From Microbacterium sp. 70-16 (GTDB taxonomy: Bacteria; Actinomycetota; Actinomycetes; Actinomycetales; Microbacteriaceae), in the NCBI RefSeq assembly GCF_001898315.1, contig NZ_MKTQ01000028.1, positions 234,763 to 298,762 of the forward strand: a DNA stretch of 64,000 nucleotides, given 5' to 3'. The notes beneath the pieces were generated by a model, which saw nothing but the letters and a program-made list of their open reading frames with translations, was not told where the DNA came from and made no database searches. Positions 4,939-64,000 of the stretch are shown here, one piece after another. Numbering within the stretch: the stretch's first letter is position 1; the number at the start of each line of letters is the position of its first letter. The translations under genes were made by a program, and so were the position numbers.

Positions 4939-5313
4939 TCAGTACGGAGCGACAAGCCCCGGGATCATCGGGAAGTGCTTCACGTTGCGGGTCAGCAACG
5001 GCACGCCGAGCCCGAGCGCCGTTGCCGCGATGGCCAGGTCGGCGCTGTCGATGCCGCGATGCGACGGCAGCCACTCGCGCCCGAGCGCTCCCGCGCGCTC
5101 TGCAACGCCCTCATCAACGGGATGCCACGTGAGCAGCCGCAAGAGTGTGCGCGTCGGCGCTTCCTCCCTCGGGCGCATTCCGGCGAGGACTTCCATCCGA
5201 GTGATCTCGCTCGCGTGCAGCGGCCCGCGCCGATGCGAGGCCTGCAGCACGGCGACCGCGGCATCCTGCCCCCGCAGCACGTCGATGAGGATCGACGTGT
5301 CGACGAGGGTCAT
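4939..5313 (-). CDS. vapC: PIN-domain toxin, VapC family
   Basis: A 124-residue ribonuclease-type PIN domain. It has the first acidic residue in MTLVDTSILIDVL, a Glu in ITRMEVLAG and the later Asp in GIDSADLAIAATA, and ends with a LLTRNVKHFPMIPGL segment typical of VapC. The track ORF begins further upstream. The ATG at 5313 is preferred because it overlaps the antitoxin stop as ATGA and starts the PIN fold directly. VapC toxins cut RNA, often tRNA, and are held inactive by VapB. The module stands alone between two palindromes and the metabolic genes around it look unrelated. Confidence 0.88.
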   Translation of the reverse strand: MTLVDTSILIDVLRGQDAAVAVLQASHRRGPLHASEITRMEVLAGMRPREEAPTRTLLRLLTWHPVDEGVAERAGALGREWLPSHRGIDSADLAIAATALGLGVPLLTRNVKHFPMIPGLVAPY

Positions 5314-5552
5314 GAGCCGAGTCGCGCGCCGGAGCGCACGCGCTCGACGTACGAGCGCCCGCCCTCGTCGCGGCCGCTCCACGCTCCTGCGACGGCAGCG
5401 ATCGTGGCTTGCCCCTCCGGCGCGCTCGCGCCACCGTAGACACTCACCACTGCGTTGCGGATGAGCGCCGACATCGACAGCCCCGTGCGCGCGGCCGCCG
5501 CATCGAGCAGCCGACGCTCCTCGTCGCCGAGCGAGATCTGCGTGCGCATCAT
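5310..5552 (-). CDS. vapB: Ribbon-helix-helix antitoxin, VapB family
   Basis: An 80-residue protein starting MMRTQISLGDEERRLLDAAA, a ribbon-helix-helix DNA-binding N-terminus, followed by a Gly/Ala-rich tail likely to bind the toxin. Two adjacent ATGs (5552 and 5549) are possible starts. No clear ribosome-binding site is visible and the start overlaps the operator, so a leaderless or very short-leader transcript is possible. It overlaps vapC by four bases. The expected role is to neutralise VapC and autorepress through the palindrome at 5551-5570. Confidence 0.85.
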   Translation of the reverse strand: MMRTQISLGDEERRLLDAAAARTGLSMSALIRNAVVSVYGGASAPEGQATIAAVAGAWSGRDEGGRSYVERVRSGARLGS

Positions 5553-5774: not shown

Positions 5775-6815
5775 TCAGGGCCGCACGAGGGTCTTGATCG
5801 CGCGGCGCTCGTCCATGGCGGCGTACGCCTCGGCGATCTCGCTCAGGGGCAGCTCGAGGTCGAAGACGAGACCCGGGTTGATCTTGCGCTGCCACACGAG
5901 ATCCATCAGGTGCGGGAGGTACGCGCGGCAGTTGGCGGGCCCGCCCTTGAGCCCGACGTTGCGCCAGAACAGCTGGTCGACGGGCAGGTCACCGTGCGGC
6001 ACGCCGACGATGCCGATGTTGCCGCCGTCGCGCACGCTGCCGACGGACTGCAGTCGCGCGCTCTCGGTGCCGACGCACTCCAGCACGCAGTCCGCGCCGA
6101 TGCCGTCGGTCACCTCGCGGATGCGCTCGCTGCCGGCCTCGTCGCGCTCTTCGACGATGTGTGTCGCACCGAACTCGCGGGCCACGCGCTGGCGCGCCTC
6201 GTGCCGGCTCATCGCGATGATGGTCGTGGCGCCCAGCTCACGCGCGGCGAGGATGGCACACAGGCCCACGGCGCCGTCGCCGACGACCGCGACCGACGAG
6301 CCCGGGCCGACGCCCGCGCTGACTGCCGCGTGCCAGCCCGTGCACATGACGTCCGAGAGGGCGAGCAGGCTCGGGATGAGGTCAGCGGGCGGCGCCGCCG
6401 GCGTCGCGACGAGCGTGCCGTCGGCCATCGGGATGCGCACGACGTCGGCCTGCGCACCGTCGTAGTGCGACCCGTGCCGGCAGTTGGCGGTCGCGCCCTT
6501 GAGGCACAGCGGACACGTGCCGTCGGACGGGTTGAAGCCGCCCACGACGAAGTCGCCGACCTTGATCGTCGTGACGGCAGACCCGACCTCGGTCACGACG
6601 CCGCACAGCTCATGCCCGATCGGCGTCGGCCCGTCGACCTTCGAGATGCCGCGGTAACGCCACAGGTCTGACCCGCACACGCACGCGGCGGTGACCTCGA
6701 GGATCGCATCGGTCGGCTCGAGCAGCACGGGGCGCGGGCGCTGCTCATAGCGGACGTCGCCCGGCGCGTGGATGACGGCGCCGAACATCGTGCGGGTTTC
6801 AGTGACAGTGGTCAT
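5775..6815 (-). CDS. Zinc-dependent alcohol dehydrogenase family protein
   Basis: This 346-residue medium-chain dehydrogenase has the catalytic zinc ligands in ACVCGSDLW and GHELCG, the structural-zinc cysteines in CPLCLKGATANCRHG, and a Rossmann nucleotide site in VVGDGAVGLCAI. The track ORF is longer, but the ATG at 6815 has a good AAAGGA site and starts in the canonical place. NAD(P)-linked oxidation of an alcohol or reduction of an aldehyde is expected; the substrate is unknown. It follows the MFS gene by about 90 bp of purine-rich repeat and is probably co-transcribed with it. Confidence 0.85.
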   Translation of the reverse strand: MTTVTETRTMFGAVIHAPGDVRYEQRPRPVLLEPTDAILEVTAACVCGSDLWRYRGISKVDGPTPIGHELCGVVTEVGSAVTTIKVGDFVVGGFNPSDGTCPLCLKGATANCRHGSHYDGAQADVVRIPMADGTLVATPAAPPADLIPSLLALSDVMCTGWHAAVSAGVGPGSSVAVVGDGAVGLCAILAARELGATTIIAMSRHEARQRVAREFGATHIVEERDEAGSERIREVTDGIGADCVLECVGTESARLQSVGSVRDGGNIGIVGVPHGDLPVDQLFWRNVGLKGGPANCRAYLPHLMDLVWQRKINPGLVFDLELPLSEIAEAYAAMDERRAIKTLVRP

Positions 6816-57811: not shown

Positions 57812-57902
57812 GGTGACGTGTCCGAGCGGCCGAAGGTGCAACTCTCGAAAAGTTGTGTAGGGTAACCCCCTACCGTGGGTTCAAATCCCACCGTCACCGC
57901 CA
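57812..57902 (+). tRNA. tRNA-Ser (anticodon CGA)
   Basis: A 91-nt class II tRNA. Acceptor GGTGACG pairs with CGTCACC, discriminator G, and CCA is encoded. The anticodon stem CAACT/AGTTG encloses CTCGAAA, so the anticodon is CGA (57846-57848), reading UCG. A long variable arm (TAGGGTAACCCCCTA) and GTGGG-TTCAAAT-CCCAC T-arm complete the fold. Chromosomal genes lie to the left and the accessory region starts right after the 3' end, as at tRNA attachment sites. Confidence 0.97.
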
Positions 57903-57914
57903 GAAAAACACCAT

Positions 57915-57942
57915 ATCAGCGCTCCTTTCGAGGGGCGCTGAT
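57915..57942 (+). terminator. Hairpin directly after tRNA-Ser
   Basis: ATCAGCGCTCC-TTTCGA-GGGGCGCTGAT forms an 11-bp stem with one G-U pair, 12 bases after the tRNA CCA. The T content after it is modest. It probably ends the tRNA transcript. Confidence 0.5.
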
Positions 57943-57950
57943 TGGCGTTT

Positions 57951-57980
57951 GGGTAAAGAATGGGTATGAATTCTTTACCC
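57951..57980. repeat. AT-richer inverted repeat at the island edge
   Basis: GGGTAAAGAAT-GGGTATGA-ATTCTTTACCC is a perfect 11-bp inverted repeat. A shifted pairing (GAATGGGTA with TACCCATTC) is also possible, so two alternative hairpins compete. Its composition is unlike the flanking chromosome. Confidence 0.55.
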
Positions 57981-58795
57981 ATTCCCGCTCGCAGAGGCCC
58001 GAGATCGCCGCCGAGGCTTCGCGTATTCCCGCCTGTCACCAGGACTTTCCTACGGCTGGCAACCCTCACTTACGGTGGGAATCTCGCCCACGGTAGGTGA
58101 CGTGCATTCGATCGGCGTGCGCCGGTGTGTTTGTTGGCCTCTCGACAGGCCACCGGCGGTCGCAGGCGTAGTCAGAATTGGCCACGCGATTGACGTACCT
58201 CGATCGGGCATCATTCCGGGCGGCTCAATCGAGCGGCCGCTCCTTTCGCCCTTGAAGATGTGACAGTCGCTCTCGCGGATGTACGGTTCACCACCGGCTA
58301 ACGACACTCCCTGAGCTGCACGCCACGCAGCCTCCTGCGCAGCGGGCGCTGCATCCTGCCGGCGTGCGGTCGAGCTCGCATCGCGAGGGTCGGGATGGTG
58401 ACTAGCGGGTTCAAGTGACGATCAGGGACTGGGCTGCACATGGCTGGTGCCCTCGCCGGCAATCATCAGCCCGCGGTCGCCGCGGCGCGAGCCCGAGGGC
58501 GACACGCGGCAATGTCCGACGCGGACTGTGTCGACACCCGCCGCGACCCGGCGCTCGTTCGCGATGAGATCCGGGGCTTCGACGTACCGTTCGTTCGAGT
58601 CCTGGGAGGCGAGTACAGGCCGATAGTCGGGGTGCAGAACATGTGAGGGCTACCTCGTCTTGGGACCGCAGAGGCCGCAGCTCGGCGCCCTTACCTCCGC
58701 GGTCGGCGCCGCCCTTTTGCCCCACACGAGCCACCCGTGCGCCTCCCGGACCCTGGCTGATTATGCCGCGAGACCGGACGGACCCCGCTACTTCA
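57981..58795. other. Gene-poor stretch at the left of the accessory region
   Basis: About 815 bp between the tRNA-side hairpins and the ImmA gene. The ORFs on the track (58050-58307 minus, 58440-58646 plus, 58411-58920 minus) have no recognisable family, no convincing ribosome sites and Arg/Ser-rich shadows. TACGGTGGGAATCTCGCCCA / CACGGTAGGTGACGTG near 58070-58100 repeats an ACGGTRGG motif. No integrase is visible. I see nothing I can call a gene. Confidence 0.5.
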
Positions 58796-59350
58796 TTACG
58801 CCCTTCGCTTGGCGAGCCTTCGTAGTCTGATGACGGTGCCGCCAGACTCCCGCATTCGCCAGACGGCCATTTCTTCGCTGACTCCATATTGCATGGCGAG
58901 TCCAGACGGCGCGCCACCACGGATGGCGTGCGAACGGGCCGCGGCGGCGGGGATCAGGAGAGCGCCTCCGAGCTCGGCAGCCTCTCGCTCGTGCTCGGAC
59001 GACGCGCCACACTTTCCTTTCTGATCCATCCAAGATCCATTCAGACGATGCTCGCCCAAGATGTGCGCGATCTCATGGGTGAGGTCCGAGAGTATGCGTG
59101 GGGGGCTGTGGACGTGGTTGTAGAGAATCACATGACCTTCACCCTCGCGTAGGAGGGCTGCAGACCAGAGGTGGGGAGCCTCGACGGTGAAGCGTCTCAA
59201 TGCCACTGGGTCATCGGTCGCCTGCGCAAGGGACAGGACGGGGACTCCCCACAGGGCTGACCAGCGGGGCACGTCGAATGGCTCGCTGGGTGTGAGTCCT
59301 ATCTCATCTCGAACCTCGGTTGCGAGTCGGGCGAGCGCGGCCTTGTTCAC
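58796..59350 (-). CDS. ImmA/IrrE family metallo-endopeptidase
   Basis: A 184-residue protease. The zinc site is THEIAHILGEH (His92, Glu93, His96), with the third ligand expected in SEHEREAAELGGALLIP around Glu121. The track ORF is longer because its frame continues over the XRE gene; the GTG at 59350 is one base after the XRE stop (TGA-C-GTG), the natural coupled start. In ImmR/ImmA, DdrO/IrrE and CapH/CapP pairs, such peptidases cleave the partner repressor after DNA damage. The same gene order and orientation against a divergent effector operon is seen here, so it is the likely trigger for that operon. Confidence 0.9.
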   Translation of the reverse strand: MNKAALARLATEVRDEIGLTPSEPFDVPRWSALWGVPVLSLAQATDDPVALRRFTVEAPHLWSAALLREGEGHVILYNHVHSPPRILSDLTHEIAHILGEHRLNGSWMDQKGKCGASSEHEREAAELGGALLIPAAAARSHAIRGGAPSGLAMQYGVSEEMAVWRMRESGGTVIRLRRLAKRRA

Positions 59351-59351
59351 G

Positions 59352-59714
59352 TCAGTTTGCGGGTCGGGTGCTCCGAAGAACCTGCAGACCGGACTTGAAC
59401 ACGTTCTCGAGCAAGGTCTTGTCGGTCTCGGTGAGGTCCTTCCGGGCGCGCAGAAGCGCCGCGACCTCACTCATCAATTCCGGCTCAGACTCCGTCCGCA
59501 CGGTCGAGCCCAAGAAGTCGTCGGCCGACATCTTCAGCCACTGCGTGATTTGCACGAACGCGTCTAGGTCCGGTCGCTGCCCGTTCCGCAGCCGAGACAG
59601 TAACGAGGGACTCACTCCAATCTGACTCGCGGCTTGGCGCCATGAAATGTTCTCGGACTCGATCCTCGCGCTGAGCACGGCAGCAAGACGGCCGACATCA
59701 ATGTGGGTAGGCAT
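59352..59714 (-). CDS. XRE-family repressor, CapH/ImmR-like
   Basis: 120 residues from the ATG at 59714 (AGAGAGAAG site upstream). Residues about 23-46 form the helix-turn-helix (SWRQAASQIGVSPSLLSRLR), then QWLKMSADDFLG closes the XRE fold. The C-terminal ~45 residues, acidic then helical, resemble the dimer and cleavage region of peptidase-controlled repressors. It is coupled to the ImmA gene and divergent from the ubiquitin-like operon; two operator-like sites lie in the 116-bp gap. It is predicted to repress both directions until cleaved. Confidence 0.9.
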   Translation of the reverse strand: MPTHIDVGRLAAVLSARIESENISWRQAASQIGVSPSLLSRLRNGQRPDLDAFVQITQWLKMSADDFLGSTVRTESEPELMSEVAALLRARKDLTETDKTLLENVFKSGLQVLRSTRPAN

Positions 59715-59753
59715 GTCGCTTCTCTCTTTCTGCGATGGTACGACACCGACCTG

Positions 59754-59774
59754 GTGTTGCGCTACTGAAACACT
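59754..59774. promoter_or_regulatory. Operator 1 for the XRE repressor
   Basis: GTGTTGCGCTACTGAAACAC has GTGTT and AACAC half-sites ten bases apart. Read on the other strand it closely matches operator 2. Confidence 0.65.
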
Positions 59775-59786
59775 TCCGGTACCTTG

Positions 59787-59808
59787 AGTGTTGCAGTAGC
59801 AAAACACT
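59787..59808. promoter_or_regulatory. Operator 2 for the XRE repressor
   Basis: AGTGTT-N10-AACACT, a 22-bp palindromic site containing GCAGTAGC. It matches operator 1 in inverted orientation at about 18 of 21 positions. The centres are about 33 bp apart (three helical turns), and this site ends 22 bp before the multi-ubiquitin start, covering the likely promoter. Confidence 0.7.
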
Positions 59809-59830
59809 GTCCCTCAAGAGAAAGGCTGTC

Positions 59831-60307
59831 ATGTCCATCACCACGCAGGACCCGCGTCACGAAGATGCGGGACGGCGCCCGAAGATCGCGATCACCATCG
59901 ATGGGGCGAGATTCACTACCCGCGATGACGACCAGGAAGCGGCCAGCCTTCTTCGCCTGGCGGGCCGTGATCCGAAGTCATGGAACCTCGCACGCCTGGT
60001 GCCCAGCGGCGAGCCGCAGCGGTTCAAGGACGGCAAGGTCATCGATCTCCGCGACGGCGATGCCTTCATCTCCGTCAAGCAGCGCGTCGAGTTGACCATC
60101 GTGATCGATGGCGAGTCCTTCACCACGAAGGATGATGATCAAGAAGCGGCCGCGCTGCTTCGCCTGGCAGGACTCAACCCGAACGAGTACGACCTCGCTC
60201 GAGTCCGCGACGGCGAAGAGCCGAAGGTCTACAAGGACACCAAGATCGTTGAGCTCCGCGACGGCGATGTCTTCGTCTCGGTGAAGCAGAGCAGCCCGGT
60301 CGCCTGA
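59831..60307 (+). CDS. Tandem ubiquitin-like protein (multiubiquitin domain family)
   Basis: 158 residues from the ATG at 59831 after AGAAAGG. Two beta-grasp repeats, about residues 18-85 and 86-152, each run IDG-x-x-FTT-x-DDDQEAA, then LLRLAG, a YDLA/WNLA turn, and LRDGD-x-F-x-SVKQ at the end. The repeats are very similar even at DNA level, so the duplication is recent or homogenised. The C-terminus is SSPVA, with no Gly-Gly. It is predicted to be activated by the E1 and passed to E2 or target. Its stop overlaps the E2 start (TGATG). The family is confident; that it is conjugated is inference. Confidence 0.88.
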   Translation: MSITTQDPRHEDAGRRPKIAITIDGARFTTRDDDQEAASLLRLAGRDPKSWNLARLVPSGEPQRFKDGKVIDLRDGDAFISVKQRVELTIVIDGESFTTKDDDQEAAALLRLAGLNPNEYDLARVRDGEEPKVYKDTKIVELRDGDVFVSVKQSSPVA

Positions 60308-60672
60308 TGGATGCCCAGGTCAGCTCCCCCGTCGCCGCGTTCATTGCGGACCTCGCCGAGCAAGGTATTCATGCGCGAGTAAACGGACCCGCTGTGGTCT
60401 ACGAGGTTGTCGCGGTGACGGGGGCGCTGGCAGGTCAGTCCGTCTCGACCGCTGTGAGCATCAATGAGCTAGGGGGGTGGCCCGCGGCGCCGCCGCACTG
60501 GATTCATTTTCCGGCGAACGTGCAGTTCGCTTCCACGAACACCGACCTCATCGACTGTTTAGAGGGCTGGACGCGACATTCTCGAGACATCGGGAACTGG
60601 AGTATGGACCGGCCTGCGATAGCCAACTGGCTTGCGCATGTGCGGGGAGTCCTAGGAGGGGTATCGGCATGA
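60307..60672 (+). CDS. E2-like protein, prokaryotic E2 family (probably family E)
   Basis: 121 residues. The core GGWPAAPPHWIHFPANVQF, then NTDLIDCLEGWTRHSRDIGN and NWSMDRPAIANWLAHVRG, resemble the small E2-fold proteins encoded beside multiubiquitin genes. It has only one Cys, Cys84, placed in the strand-to-helix region where an E2 thioester Cys could lie. The ATG overlaps the previous stop and its own stop overlaps the E1 start (ATGA), so the three are translated together. It would carry the ubiquitin-like protein from E1 to target. The exact E2 subfamily is uncertain. Confidence 0.75.
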   Translation: MDAQVSSPVAAFIADLAEQGIHARVNGPAVVYEVVAVTGALAGQSVSTAVSINELGGWPAAPPHWIHFPANVQFASTNTDLIDCLEGWTRHSRDIGNWSMDRPAIANWLAHVRGVLGGVSA

Positions 60673-62153
60673 CAATCTCAATCGCTATGACACAAGAGCT
60701 CTCCAACGAACTCGAAGCACACCTCGCTCGCGCCGATGGGCAAGAGGATGTGGTCATCGCAACTTACGTCTGGTCGACGGGCAACACGCGACGCACCGCC
60801 ATCCTGGGTCGGGCAGTCATGCCGGCTCCAGGCGAACGCAAAGTCCACGGCAATGCGTCGTTCACGGGCGGGTATGTCGTGAGAGCTGCCACCGAAGCGC
60901 GCGAACGGAGCGAGGGCATCGTGCTGCTGCACTCACATCCGGATGCCACGGGCTGGCAGGGGCTTAGTGGGCCCGACCACAACACGGAGTCCGAGTACGA
61001 ACGCGTCGCACGTTCTATCACCGGCCTCCCTCTCGTCGGCATGACGCTCGGGACTCGGGGGAGCAGTTGGTCCGGCAGGGTCTGGGAAACCAGCGCGGAG
61101 CCAACCCACGCGGAGTCGGTGCGTGTCTCTGGTTCGACCCTGAGGGTAACGTGGAACGAAGACCGGCGCCGCGCGCCACGCGCCACTGAGTACCAGCGCC
61201 GGACTGTGGCCGCGTGGGGTGAGTCCATCCAGCGCGACATCGCGCGGCTCAAGGTCCTCGTCGTGGGCGTTGGCAGCGTAGGCCTGGATATCGCGGCAAG
61301 GATCGCAGCCACCGGTGTCGAGCATCTTGGCGTGATGGATGTGGACGTCGTCGAGGAGTTGAATCTTGATCGAATGATTGGGGCAACCCGTGAGGATGCC
61401 CGTGAGCGTCGATTGAAGACGGAGGTCGCCGCGCGAGTCGCGCGAACGGCTGCCACTGCTACCGATTTCGAGCTGCAGACCCACGACGTGAGCATCACCA
61501 CTCCTGAAGGCTTGGCTGCGGCTCTGGACTACGACGTGATCTTTTCGTGCGTCGACCGACCGTGGCCTCGTGCGGTGCTCAATTCCGTGGCGTACGCCGA
61601 CCTCATTCCGGTCATTGACGGGGGTATCGCAATCGATACTCTCCCTGACGGCCGAATGCGCGGCGCGACGTGGAAGACGCACGCCATCGTTCCGGGTCGG
61701 CCGTGCATGCAGTGCAATGGGCAGCTCCGTGTGAACGAGCTCACGCTGGATCGTGCGGGCCTGCTTGATAGCCCGAAGTACATTCGCCAGTCCGGCATCC
61801 AGCCCGGTACAGGTGCACCCAATGTCGCCGCGCTGGCCGCGTCCGTAAGCGCAGGAATGCTTGCCACGTTCGTCAGCTTGGTGGCAGCACCTGCCGGAAT
61901 CGGAGTCCCGGCTCCGCTGCGGTACGCGTTGGCGGTTCACCAGCTCGAACATCTGCCCGCGACGAGCGGGATGTTCTGCACCTACGAGAAGGGGACGGCG
62001 CTGGGCGACAAGCGCCTCAGCCTCGTGTCCAACTCTTGCTCTCCGACGAGCCAGCGTACTGACTCGCGGCGGGGACGTCTCCGCCGATGTGCGCGGCGGT
62101 TGTTGGCCGCGTTCACCGGTCGGCTGGCTCGCTTGGCGGAAAGGACCGGGTAG
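60669..62153 (+). CDS. JAB deubiquitinase-E1 (ThiF) fusion protein
   Basis: 494 residues from ATG 60669; the track ORF begins earlier in the E2 gene. Residues 1-140 form a JAB/JAMM domain with the zinc motif LLHSHPDATGWQGLSGPD (His88, His90, Asp103). Residues about 185-440 form a ThiF/E1 adenylation domain: GVGSVG at 200, MDVDVVEELNLDR (Asp224, Asn232, Arg235), Lys250, and FSCVDRPWPRAVLN. PCMQC (346-349) is a zinc or catalytic Cys pair; Cys437 and Cys457 are other candidates. The last 35 residues are strongly basic. It combines processing and activation of the ubiquitin-like protein in one chain. Confidence 0.9.
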   Translation: MTISIAMTQELSNELEAHLARADGQEDVVIATYVWSTGNTRRTAILGRAVMPAPGERKVHGNASFTGGYVVRAATEARERSEGIVLLHSHPDATGWQGLSGPDHNTESEYERVARSITGLPLVGMTLGTRGSSWSGRVWETSAEPTHAESVRVSGSTLRVTWNEDRRRAPRATEYQRRTVAAWGESIQRDIARLKVLVVGVGSVGLDIAARIAATGVEHLGVMDVDVVEELNLDRMIGATREDARERRLKTEVAARVARTAATATDFELQTHDVSITTPEGLAAALDYDVIFSCVDRPWPRAVLNSVAYADLIPVIDGGIAIDTLPDGRMRGATWKTHAIVPGRPCMQCNGQLRVNELTLDRAGLLDSPKYIRQSGIQPGTGAPNVAALAASVSAGMLATFVSLVAAPAGIGVPAPLRYALAVHQLEHLPATSGMFCTYEKGTALGDKRLSLVSNSCSPTSQRTDSRRGRLRRCARRLLAAFTGRLARLAERTG

Positions 62154-62246
62154 TAGACCTGCGGCTTGGCTGCTGATGGCGGCGCAGCGCGCTCGGTACT
62201 ATGCCGCTAGAGTTCGGAGGTCGAGTATTTCTGTGTAGGGAGACAC
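62154..62246. other. Gap between JAB-E1 and protease genes
   Basis: 93 bp, the only sizeable gap in the operon. No hairpin terminator is obvious; AGGGAG lies just before the next ATG. A secondary promoter is possible but not demonstrable. Confidence 0.4.
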
Positions 62247-63323
62247 ATGGAAGCCCGCCCATCCAAGAAGCCTGCGCGCGCAGCGGAGCCGAAGCCTTCA
62301 GCCGGTGAACCGGTCCAAGATGCGCTCCCGGTCGACGAGCCGCTGACAGCTGACGATTCAGTCGACGACAAGGTGCGTTCCGAGAACGCAGATGGGGCTT
62401 CGGATCCCGTCGACGAATCGACGTCGCCTGCGGACTGGGACGTGCTGATGCTCCTCCAGATGGGACCTGGCGCCAACAGTTCGCTGATGCGACCAGTCGT
62501 GCAGGACATAATCCAGCGACTCGGGGGGCTCGATGCACCGCGAGAGCCTGGCTCTCGCATCGATGTCTGGCTGGATTCCCCTGGAGGGGATGCTCACGCA
62601 GCGTACAAGCTCGGTCTCTATTTGCGATCGCGGTTCGAAGTTGTCAACTTCGTCATCGTTGACTACGCCAAGAGTGCGGCCACGCTGCTCGCGCTTGCAG
62701 GCGACGAGATCTTCATGGGGCCGGCCGCAGAGCTTGGCCCGCTTGACACTCAAGAGAGCCGCGAAGGCGAGGTTCGGATGCGCTCGAACCTCGACACCGC
62801 AAATACCATCGACAACGTTTACTTCCAGGTCGTTTCGAACGCCATCGCGGCGGGCAGCGAGATTCTGCGATCCACCGCGTTGACTCGAGAACAGACCATT
62901 CAGCATGTGCTCGACTTCTCAGCCCAGTTCGCCAGGCCGCTTCTCGAGCAAATCGATCTAGTTGCCGTGAACGCCGCGAGCACCAGCCTCGACGTCGCGA
63001 TTGAATACGGAGCCCGGCTACTGTCATACCGTCACAATCGGACCGGGTTCGCTTCCGCCAAGGCACGCATGTCTCAACTCGTTCGCGGATACCCCACGCA
63101 CGGGTACGTAATCGACCGCGATGAGGCGCGAGACGGGCTGGGCCTACCAGTGAAAAATCTGGAGGACTACGGGCTGTTGTCTCAACTCGATGCTGTCTAT
63201 GCTGGCGCTCAAAGCCAGCAAATGAACATCATCGAAATAACTAAAGCGTCAGCCATCGTTCGAGTCTCTGAGGAGGAAGAGCATGTGGAGCCTGAAGCAG
63301 GGACCGAGCCCGGAGCAGCATGA
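62247..63323 (+). CDS. ClpP/SppA-fold protease, SDH_sah (serine dehydrogenase proteinase) family
   Basis: 358 residues. The first ~62 are acidic and disordered. The core has IDVWLDSPGGDAHAAYKLG (oxyanion loop at 111-114), then VDYAKSAATLLALAGDEIFM with the nucleophile Ser143 next to Lys142, and GPAAELGPLDTQ, the family signature. A helical domain follows, then GLPVKNLEDYGLLSQ and an acidic tail. Unlike membrane SppA it has no membrane segment. It shares direction and spacing with the ubiquitin-like genes and is the probable effector: proteolysis of tagged proteins or of its own partners. No unfoldase is encoded nearby. Confidence 0.87.
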   Translation: MEARPSKKPARAAEPKPSAGEPVQDALPVDEPLTADDSVDDKVRSENADGASDPVDESTSPADWDVLMLLQMGPGANSSLMRPVVQDIIQRLGGLDAPREPGSRIDVWLDSPGGDAHAAYKLGLYLRSRFEVVNFVIVDYAKSAATLLALAGDEIFMGPAAELGPLDTQESREGEVRMRSNLDTANTIDNVYFQVVSNAIAAGSEILRSTALTREQTIQHVLDFSAQFARPLLEQIDLVAVNAASTSLDVAIEYGARLLSYRHNRTGFASAKARMSQLVRGYPTHGYVIDRDEARDGLGLPVKNLEDYGLLSQLDAVYAGAQSQQMNIIEITKASAIVRVSEEEEHVEPEAGTEPGAA

Positions 63324-63468
63324 ATCGCGGAGCGCCCGGTCGAGCTACGTCTTCAAGACCCGAAGAGAGGCGGGCTACGCCGCTCTCGACCGGATCCATG
63401 CTCGCAACGAGGCTCGACAGGGGCGGGTTACGGGCGAATGGCGGCGCGCGCTCCGCGAAGGGCGGTAA
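63283..63468 (+). CDS. Small basic ORF overlapping the protease 3' end
   Basis: 61 residues, MWSLKQGPSPEQHESRSARS onward with RREAGYAALDRIHARNEARQ, Arg-rich and probably helical. An excellent GAGGAGG stands seven bases before the ATG, although those bases also encode the Glu run of the protease. The 41-base overlap is in another frame. No family is recognised. It could be a small partner or regulator of the protease, or a chance frame. Confidence 0.45.
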   Translation: MWSLKQGPSPEQHESRSARSSYVFKTRREAGYAALDRIHARNEARQGRVTGEWRRALREGR

Positions 63469-63524
63469 GTCCGCTTTGAACGGCCGTGGTGAACAAGGCC
63501 GTTCAATGCGGCGACGGTCCCCTA

Positions 63525-63710
63525 GGACGTGTCTGACAAAGGTTGAGGGGTCTGGCTGAGAATCTCGACGGGTGTCGCGGTTTCGATTGCTGCCGGATGC
63601 AAAAGGGGCGTTGATCCGGGAGATGCTGCCGCCGACCACTGGCGGCCGGGGCCGAAGTTCCCGGATGGGCGGCCGATGGTCGAGCGCAGCGCACCGCACC
63701 TTGACGTCCC
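63525..63710 (+). pseudogene. IS5-type transposase, 5' remnant with left terminal repeat
   Basis: GGACGTGTCTGACAAA resembles the left end of IS5-family elements. From a GTG at 63572, SRFRLLPDAKGALIREMLPP matches the N-terminus of IS5-group transposases, and GGRGRS is followed, after a one-base frameshift, by FPDGRPMVE, the expected continuation. Sequence after about 63700 no longer matches. The element is broken and cannot move by itself. Confidence 0.65.
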
Positions 63711-64000
63711 GCACGGCTTGTCGAACGCTTCGCGTTCAACGAGCTTCGCCGGGTCGCACCCCGCTCGGGGACCGGAGATTTCAGAGGGGATCGCCGTTGC
63801 AGTGCGTGAGGTGGCGCAGGTGGTCGCGAACCAGCTGACACCGTCGCAGTTCCCGCTGGCGAGTGTTACCGCGTTCCTCTGTGGGCGCCATCGACGATCG
63901 CGAAACGCCCAGCAAGTACGAATCGGTCCCGCTCAGGTGAGTATTCGCGCTTCTGAGGGCCGCTGATATTGGGGTTCGGGGCCACCCTGCCGTCGACGCG
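63711..64000. other. Right edge without a supported gene
   Basis: A plus-strand frame (63676-63966) is open (EVAQVVANQLTPSQFPLASV) but starts inside the transposase remnant and matches no family I know. The window ends before an integrase or a second attachment site could be seen. Confidence 0.4.

Follow-up and report, generated by a model that had tools for sequence, protein, structure and literature searches.

Probable paired dyad operators and a putative CapH/CapP-type switch beside a Bub operon in Microbacterium sp. 70-16

RESULTS AND DISCUSSION

Gene content of the locus

The stretch analyzed here (the window) comprises 64,000 nucleotides of the Microbacterium sp. 70-16 genome. Toward its right end, two leftward genes, encoding an XRE-family protein and a zinc peptidase, are separated by a short gap from a rightward operon. 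The features are as follows, in window coordinates.

58796..59350, minus strand: CapP/ImmA-like M78 metallopeptidase, 184 aa (Pfam Peptidase_M78; HExxH at residues 92-96)
59352..59714, minus strand: CapH-like XRE repressor, 120 aa (Pfam HTH_3; PADLOC capH)
59715..59830, 116 bp: divergent gap for promoters and operators; a purine-rich ribosome-binding sequence lies at either end (~59718-59728 and ~59816-59826)
59754..59773: probable operator site 1, proximal to the XRE gene, GTGTTGCGCTACTGAAACAC; exact dyad, rank 1 in 64 kb, 25.0 bits
59788..59807: probable operator site 2, proximal to the Bub operon, GTGTTGCAGTAGCAAAACAC; exact dyad, rank 2 in 64 kb, 24.6 bits
59831..60307, plus strand: BubA-like protein with two tandem ubiquitin-like domains (weak Pfam Multi_ubiq match)
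60307..60672, plus strand: BubB/E2-like protein (prokaryotic E2, same operon position); its start overlaps the BubA stop (TGATG)
60669..62153, plus strand: BubCD-like JAB-ThiF (E1) fusion (Pfam ThiF, E 1.1e-26; JAMM-like HSHP-D motif)
62247..63323, plus strand: ClpP-fold SDH-type serine protease (Pfam SDH_protease, E 2.6e-9), 93 bp after the Bub genes

The XRE ATG at 59714 (minus strand) and the BubA ATG at 59831 bound the gap exactly. On its left side the XRE stop and the GTG start of the ImmA gene are 1 nt apart, which makes translational coupling plausible and agrees with the coupled XRE-ImmA pair of the original prediction, which had been made from the letters of the window.

The tandem-ubiquitin protein, the E2-like protein, and the JAB-ThiF fusion identify the right side as a Bub operon; among solved structures, the fusion matches Citrobacter BubCD best (E value of 9.3e-25). 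Ubiquitin-like, E2-like, and JAB plus E1 components (here fused) are all present, in an order conserved with related loci L081 to L087. The BubA-like protein shares 44 to 48% identity with the two-domain proteins and 58 to 60% with the single-domain proteins of related operons, and several of its relatives carry a multiubiquitin annotation. The BubB/E2-like protein is 38 to 52% identical to the proteins at the same position of related Bub operons and 27% identical to a protein of L015 with a sub-threshold Prok-E2_E match. A frameshift in the C terminus of the BubCD-like protein was considered and rejected, because this tail is variable in all homologs.

The putative repressor and the peptidase

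The XRE protein matches the PADLOC capH profile weakly over residues 11 to 106 (E value of 9.5e-6). Its predicted model consists of an HTH followed by a C-terminal helical pair. With this model, Foldseek retrieved only generic XRE folds, among them the N-terminal domain of CapH (7t5u) at a modest TM score of 0.70 by target length, and a phmmer search of the protein against the PDB returned nothing at an E value of 0.01. Together, these matches relate the protein to CapH on modest evidence. In its C-terminal part, the sequence LLRA (residues 87 to 90), at the edge of the loop that connects the two helices, is unchanged in 27 homologs. The cleavage loop of DdrO carries ELRG (PMC10904395), and by this analogy the inter-helix loop next to LLRA is the proposed cleavage region.

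The peptidase that adjoins the XRE gene is related to CapP and has an intact active site. In 20 homologs, H92, E93, H96, E123, and the cysteine C114 of a loop do not vary, and the His92/Glu93 pair singled out by the original prediction is part of the HExxH motif. C114 is at most a tentative candidate for a switch cysteine, by analogy with a cysteine switch reportedly described for CapP. The predicted model (mean pLDDT of 92) finds CapP as its top structural match (7t5t; Z 13.8, rmsd 4.2, 156 residues), followed by regulators of the Rv2017 type (deposited as Mycobacterium tuberculosis transcriptional regulator) and by PprI/IrrE. The PADLOC capP match is weak (E value of 2.2e-6) and covers profile positions 43 to 153 of 242.

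The peptidase has no C-terminal domain beyond the peptidase core, with 184 aa versus 291 for 7t5t. The CapH/CapP family has no known requirement for such a domain, and the short length weakens strict membership among full CapP proteins, not the functional analogy. The IrrE alignment spans chain residues 13 to 170 only, of approximately 243 modeled residues, and because it stops at residue 170, the GAF-like domain is missing in the peptidase. In PprI this domain takes part in single-stranded DNA (ssDNA) binding (PMC10904395). Given its absence here and the ImmA-like size of the peptidase, the triggering step may differ from that of CapP and PprI.

Two dyads in the divergent gap

Both GTGTT-N10-AACAC sites of the original prediction are exact. 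Dinucleotide shuffling of the window, repeated 100 times, never produced the pattern, and of its seven occurrences in the 3.13-Mb genome, two are in this gap. Aligned with each other, the sites agree at 18 of 21 positions (86%) in inverted orientation, as had been claimed, and at 76% in direct orientation. Their centers are 34 bp apart, which amounts to 3.2 helical turns (10.5 bp each) and corrects the three turns of the original prediction. The BubA start follows 24 bp after the end of site 2.

A search with an alignment of XRE proteins yielded 47 loci in actinobacterial genomes, to which plasmid loci and two same-genus genomes were added, and 55 loci were kept. For footprinting, 18 non-redundant homolog clusters were built from XRE protein identity; clustering of the upstream regions by free-gap DNA alignment was dropped, as it merged nearly everything. 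Upstream of the 18 non-redundant homologs, dyads with 5-bp arms and even total lengths of 12 to 22 are enriched (z of 2.7 to 7.8), with z of 7.8 at a total length of 18, 5.6 at 20, and values near 0 at odd lengths. A palindromic 22-bp motif was then trained without the window, only on sequences upstream of XRE homologs from other genera; its seeds were taken from L011 and L062, so that these two loci are slightly favored and the window is not. This motif places the two gap sites first and second of the 64 kb, the third match scoring 11.7 bits, and its maximum in 18 Mb of random (Markov) sequence is 18.4 bits. The operator reading of the original prediction is thus borne out by independent footprinting, which ranks both sites far above the rest of the window and the random null.

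When each cluster was left out in turn, 17 of the 18 clusters had their locus-wide top match in the 190 nt that precede the XRE gene. The failing cluster (L015 to L017) differs in its recognition helix, which reads SPSTMTR in place of SPSLLSR, and it has a paired dyad of its own, GTTCGAC-N2-GTCGAAC; such covariation of helix and dyad is expected if the XRE protein reads the dyad. At least two sites per gap are present in most clusters. Their spacing is about 20, 40, or 60 bp in the relatives, which makes the 34 bp of the window an outlier.

The closest Bub operons by E1 sequence (53 to 59% identity over the full alignment) mostly have other M78-containing regulators. These are HTH-M78 fusions in L082 to L084 and L086, the last also having a gene for a HigB-like toxin. 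In L081 and L087 the M78 proteins show no detected HTH, and L088 has no annotated M78 gene. The motif is absent from the gaps of eight related Bub operons with other regulators (−2.9 to 5.2 bits), and these low scores indicate that it follows the regulator, not the cargo. The motif ranks, the held-out cluster test, and the absence beside other regulators together argue that the dyads are very probably the operators of the divergently encoded XRE protein.

The same genome has a lone GTGTTGCGCCCGTGAAACAC site in front of an xdhC-like gene, again in a divergent gap (G000 C26:140824-140843; L004, L010 3325-3344). It was rejected as a second regulon member, since its 14.2 bits lie within the random background, and no conservation was seen in the other 57 genomes searched.

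A scan of the gap for consensus sigma-70 promoters found nothing, and a −35/−10 pair picked manually (TTGCGC-17-TACCTT at 59757-59785) is too weak to be claimed as a promoter. In CBASS-linked relatives, the distal operator contains the extended −10 of the divergent operon (TGTTAGAAT and variants), an arrangement that fits repression by promoter occlusion. The pattern TGnTAnnnT touches an operator in 19 of the 55 loci.

Cargo of the homologous loci

The ImmA gene adjoins the XRE gene in all 55 loci, convergently in three Rhodococcus plasmids. The same regulator pair is found beside CBASS, Pycsar, and Bub operons, so that the pair sits, with its probable operators, at the promoter of an immune operon both here and in relatives. 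Type II CBASS (SMODS cyclase, E1-E2, and JAB-TIR-SAVED) adjoins it in seven loci (L012, L013, L023, L031, L033, L035, and L067), and a further cyclase/E1/JAB/TIR-SAVED type in L022 and relatives. Pycsar (PycC and PycTM) adjoins it in L056, and ubiquitin-like operons in the window, L014, L015 to L017, L038, and L065. Many Saccharomonospora and Prauserella relatives have no recognizable immune operon beside the pair.

Proposed mechanism

From these computed features we infer a switch in which a CapH-like repressor sits on the dyads and is released by an ImmA-like peptidase, a reading that is likely as a whole. XRE dimers would bind the two dyads and cover both promoters of the gap, shutting off the Bub operon and probably the gene of the repressor itself; repression of the Bub operon by the XRE protein is highly likely. 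The ImmA-like zinc peptidase would be the releasing factor, active most likely after DNA damage or with ssDNA during phage attack. It would cut the C-terminal dimerization region of the repressor, which would then leave the DNA and allow the operon to be expressed. A low basal level of operon expression and its rise after DNA damage are predicted accordingly. Cleavage of the XRE protein by the ImmA protein is quite likely, DNA damage is a fairly probable trigger, and for direct sensing of ssDNA the case is evenly balanced.

CapH and CapP are presented as controllers of CBASS and other immune operons by Lau et al. 2022, as that study is cited in PMC13373217 and PMC10233336, and cleavage of CapH by CapP is stimulated by ssDNA (PMC10233336). 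CapW or CapH plus CapP adjoins 219 of 544 Bub operons, and both respond to DNA damage (PMC13373217, 2026). In light of that report, a CapH/CapP-type switch on the Bub operon described here would be a further example of a known arrangement. The CapH/CapP-like layout originally proposed for this gap is supported by the weak PADLOC matches to both partners, the structural match to CapP, and the presence of the same pair beside CBASS and Pycsar in relatives.

With repressor and operators unchanged, the wiring could also follow ImmR/ImmA: the short peptidase would be activated by a RecA-dependent or other protein signal, in contrast to CapP and PprI, which bind ssDNA directly. The 184-aa length, the missing GAF-like domain, and the same short peptidase core shared by the 20 aligned homologs all favor such wiring, but the best structural and profile matches are to CapP and PprI/IrrE, and the neighbors of the relatives are immune operons, not genes of integrative conjugative elements (ICEs). 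On balance, ImmR/ImmA-like wiring is rather unlikely. Beside the pair itself, no ICE genes were seen over a sequence that stops, with the contig, at the window end. A compact, portable actinobacterial form of CapH/CapP is a tentative reading, at somewhat less than even odds: a peptidase without the GAF-like domain would still sense damage via its peptidase-HTH core or a partner, and would be swapped intact with its operators among CBASS, Pycsar, and Bub operons.

Control of the Bub operon by the pair is itself the point at issue if the pair is only self-regulating or toxin-antitoxin-like, which we regard as improbable. Some HTH-Xre/Zn-metalloproteinase pairs have been described as toxin-antitoxin systems (PMC10538038), and the Saccharomonospora-type relatives lack immune cargo. 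Against this stand the short distance from site 2 to the BubA start, the multiple sites per gap in most clusters, the overlap of operators with the cargo-side −10 in CBASS-linked relatives, and the repeated association with three immune systems. That the dyads bind another regulator, or form a chance pair, is very improbable; the similar site in the xdhC gap would fit such an explanation, but it scores as random background and is unconserved, and across genera the motif goes with XRE homologs and does not occur next to other regulators.

Relation to known systems

The preferred CapH/CapP-type reading rests on likenesses in the joint coding of an XRE repressor and a zinc peptidase beside an immune operon, in the peptidase fold, and in the same-genus relatives of the pair that sit on type II CBASS. 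The differences are the weak profile matches, a peptidase approximately 100 aa shorter than the CapP chain 7t5t, and the putative status of ssDNA activation here. ImmR/ImmA of ICEBs1 and its relatives likewise couple the genes of an XRE repressor and a short ImmA peptidase, but here the cargo is a Bub operon of the immune type in place of an integrative conjugative element. With DdrO/PprI (IrrE) of Deinococcus, the pair shares the peptidase fold and a C-terminal repressor part with a candidate cleavage loop, whereas PprI has a GAF-like domain and controls a DNA repair regulon, compared with only two local sites here. The operon resembles the described Bub operons (BubA, BubB, and BubCD) in its gene order and in having Citrobacter BubCD as its best solved relative, and differs in regulator from most of its nearest E1 relatives, among which HTH-M78 fusions occur.

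The motif gives a DNA-level definition of the operator, a 20- to 22-bp dyad with a consensus near AGTGTTTCRRWWYYGAAACACT, usually in two or more copies, for a regulator family found with three kinds of bacterial immune operon. No description of this operator family was found in the literature examined. With the dyad defined, damage-induced control of the little-understood Bub ubiquitin-like systems becomes testable with short oligonucleotides, and the motif can help to find more immune operons in genomes of actinobacteria. Being short, the peptidase raises the question of how damage would be sensed in the absence of a GAF-like domain.

Additional features of the region and of related loci

To the right of a tRNA-Ser gene (57812-57902), the G+C content falls from approximately 0.70 to approximately 0.62 (57812-64000, up to the contig end). 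This part of the window has features as for an acquired element beside a tRNA, with no integrase noticed and no direct repeat of the tRNA-Ser of at least 13 nt to its right. No protein similar to the SDH-type protease is annotated beside the ThiF gene in related operons.

The ubiquitin-like proteins of the window and of L081 to L086 have one or two domains and all end in -VA, with no C-terminal glycine. The E2-like protein has a single cysteine; it is not shared by the related operons L087 and L088 and so may not be a classical catalytic cysteine. The closest XRE relatives (approximately 54% identical; L062, L063, and L064, on Rhodococcus plasmids) have a convergent ImmA gene and a divergent gene for a 302- to 303-aa protein, which in L062 has no Pfam match. 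A very short basic open reading frame (ORF) of approximately 40 to 55 aa, of the MAGKRGRSAVTGRFVKQSTVK... type, separates the operators from the CD-NTase gene in the CBASS-linked L012 (~5280-5400) and L013 (~5900-6020), and a similar short basic ORF occupies the same place in L066 (5692-5856).
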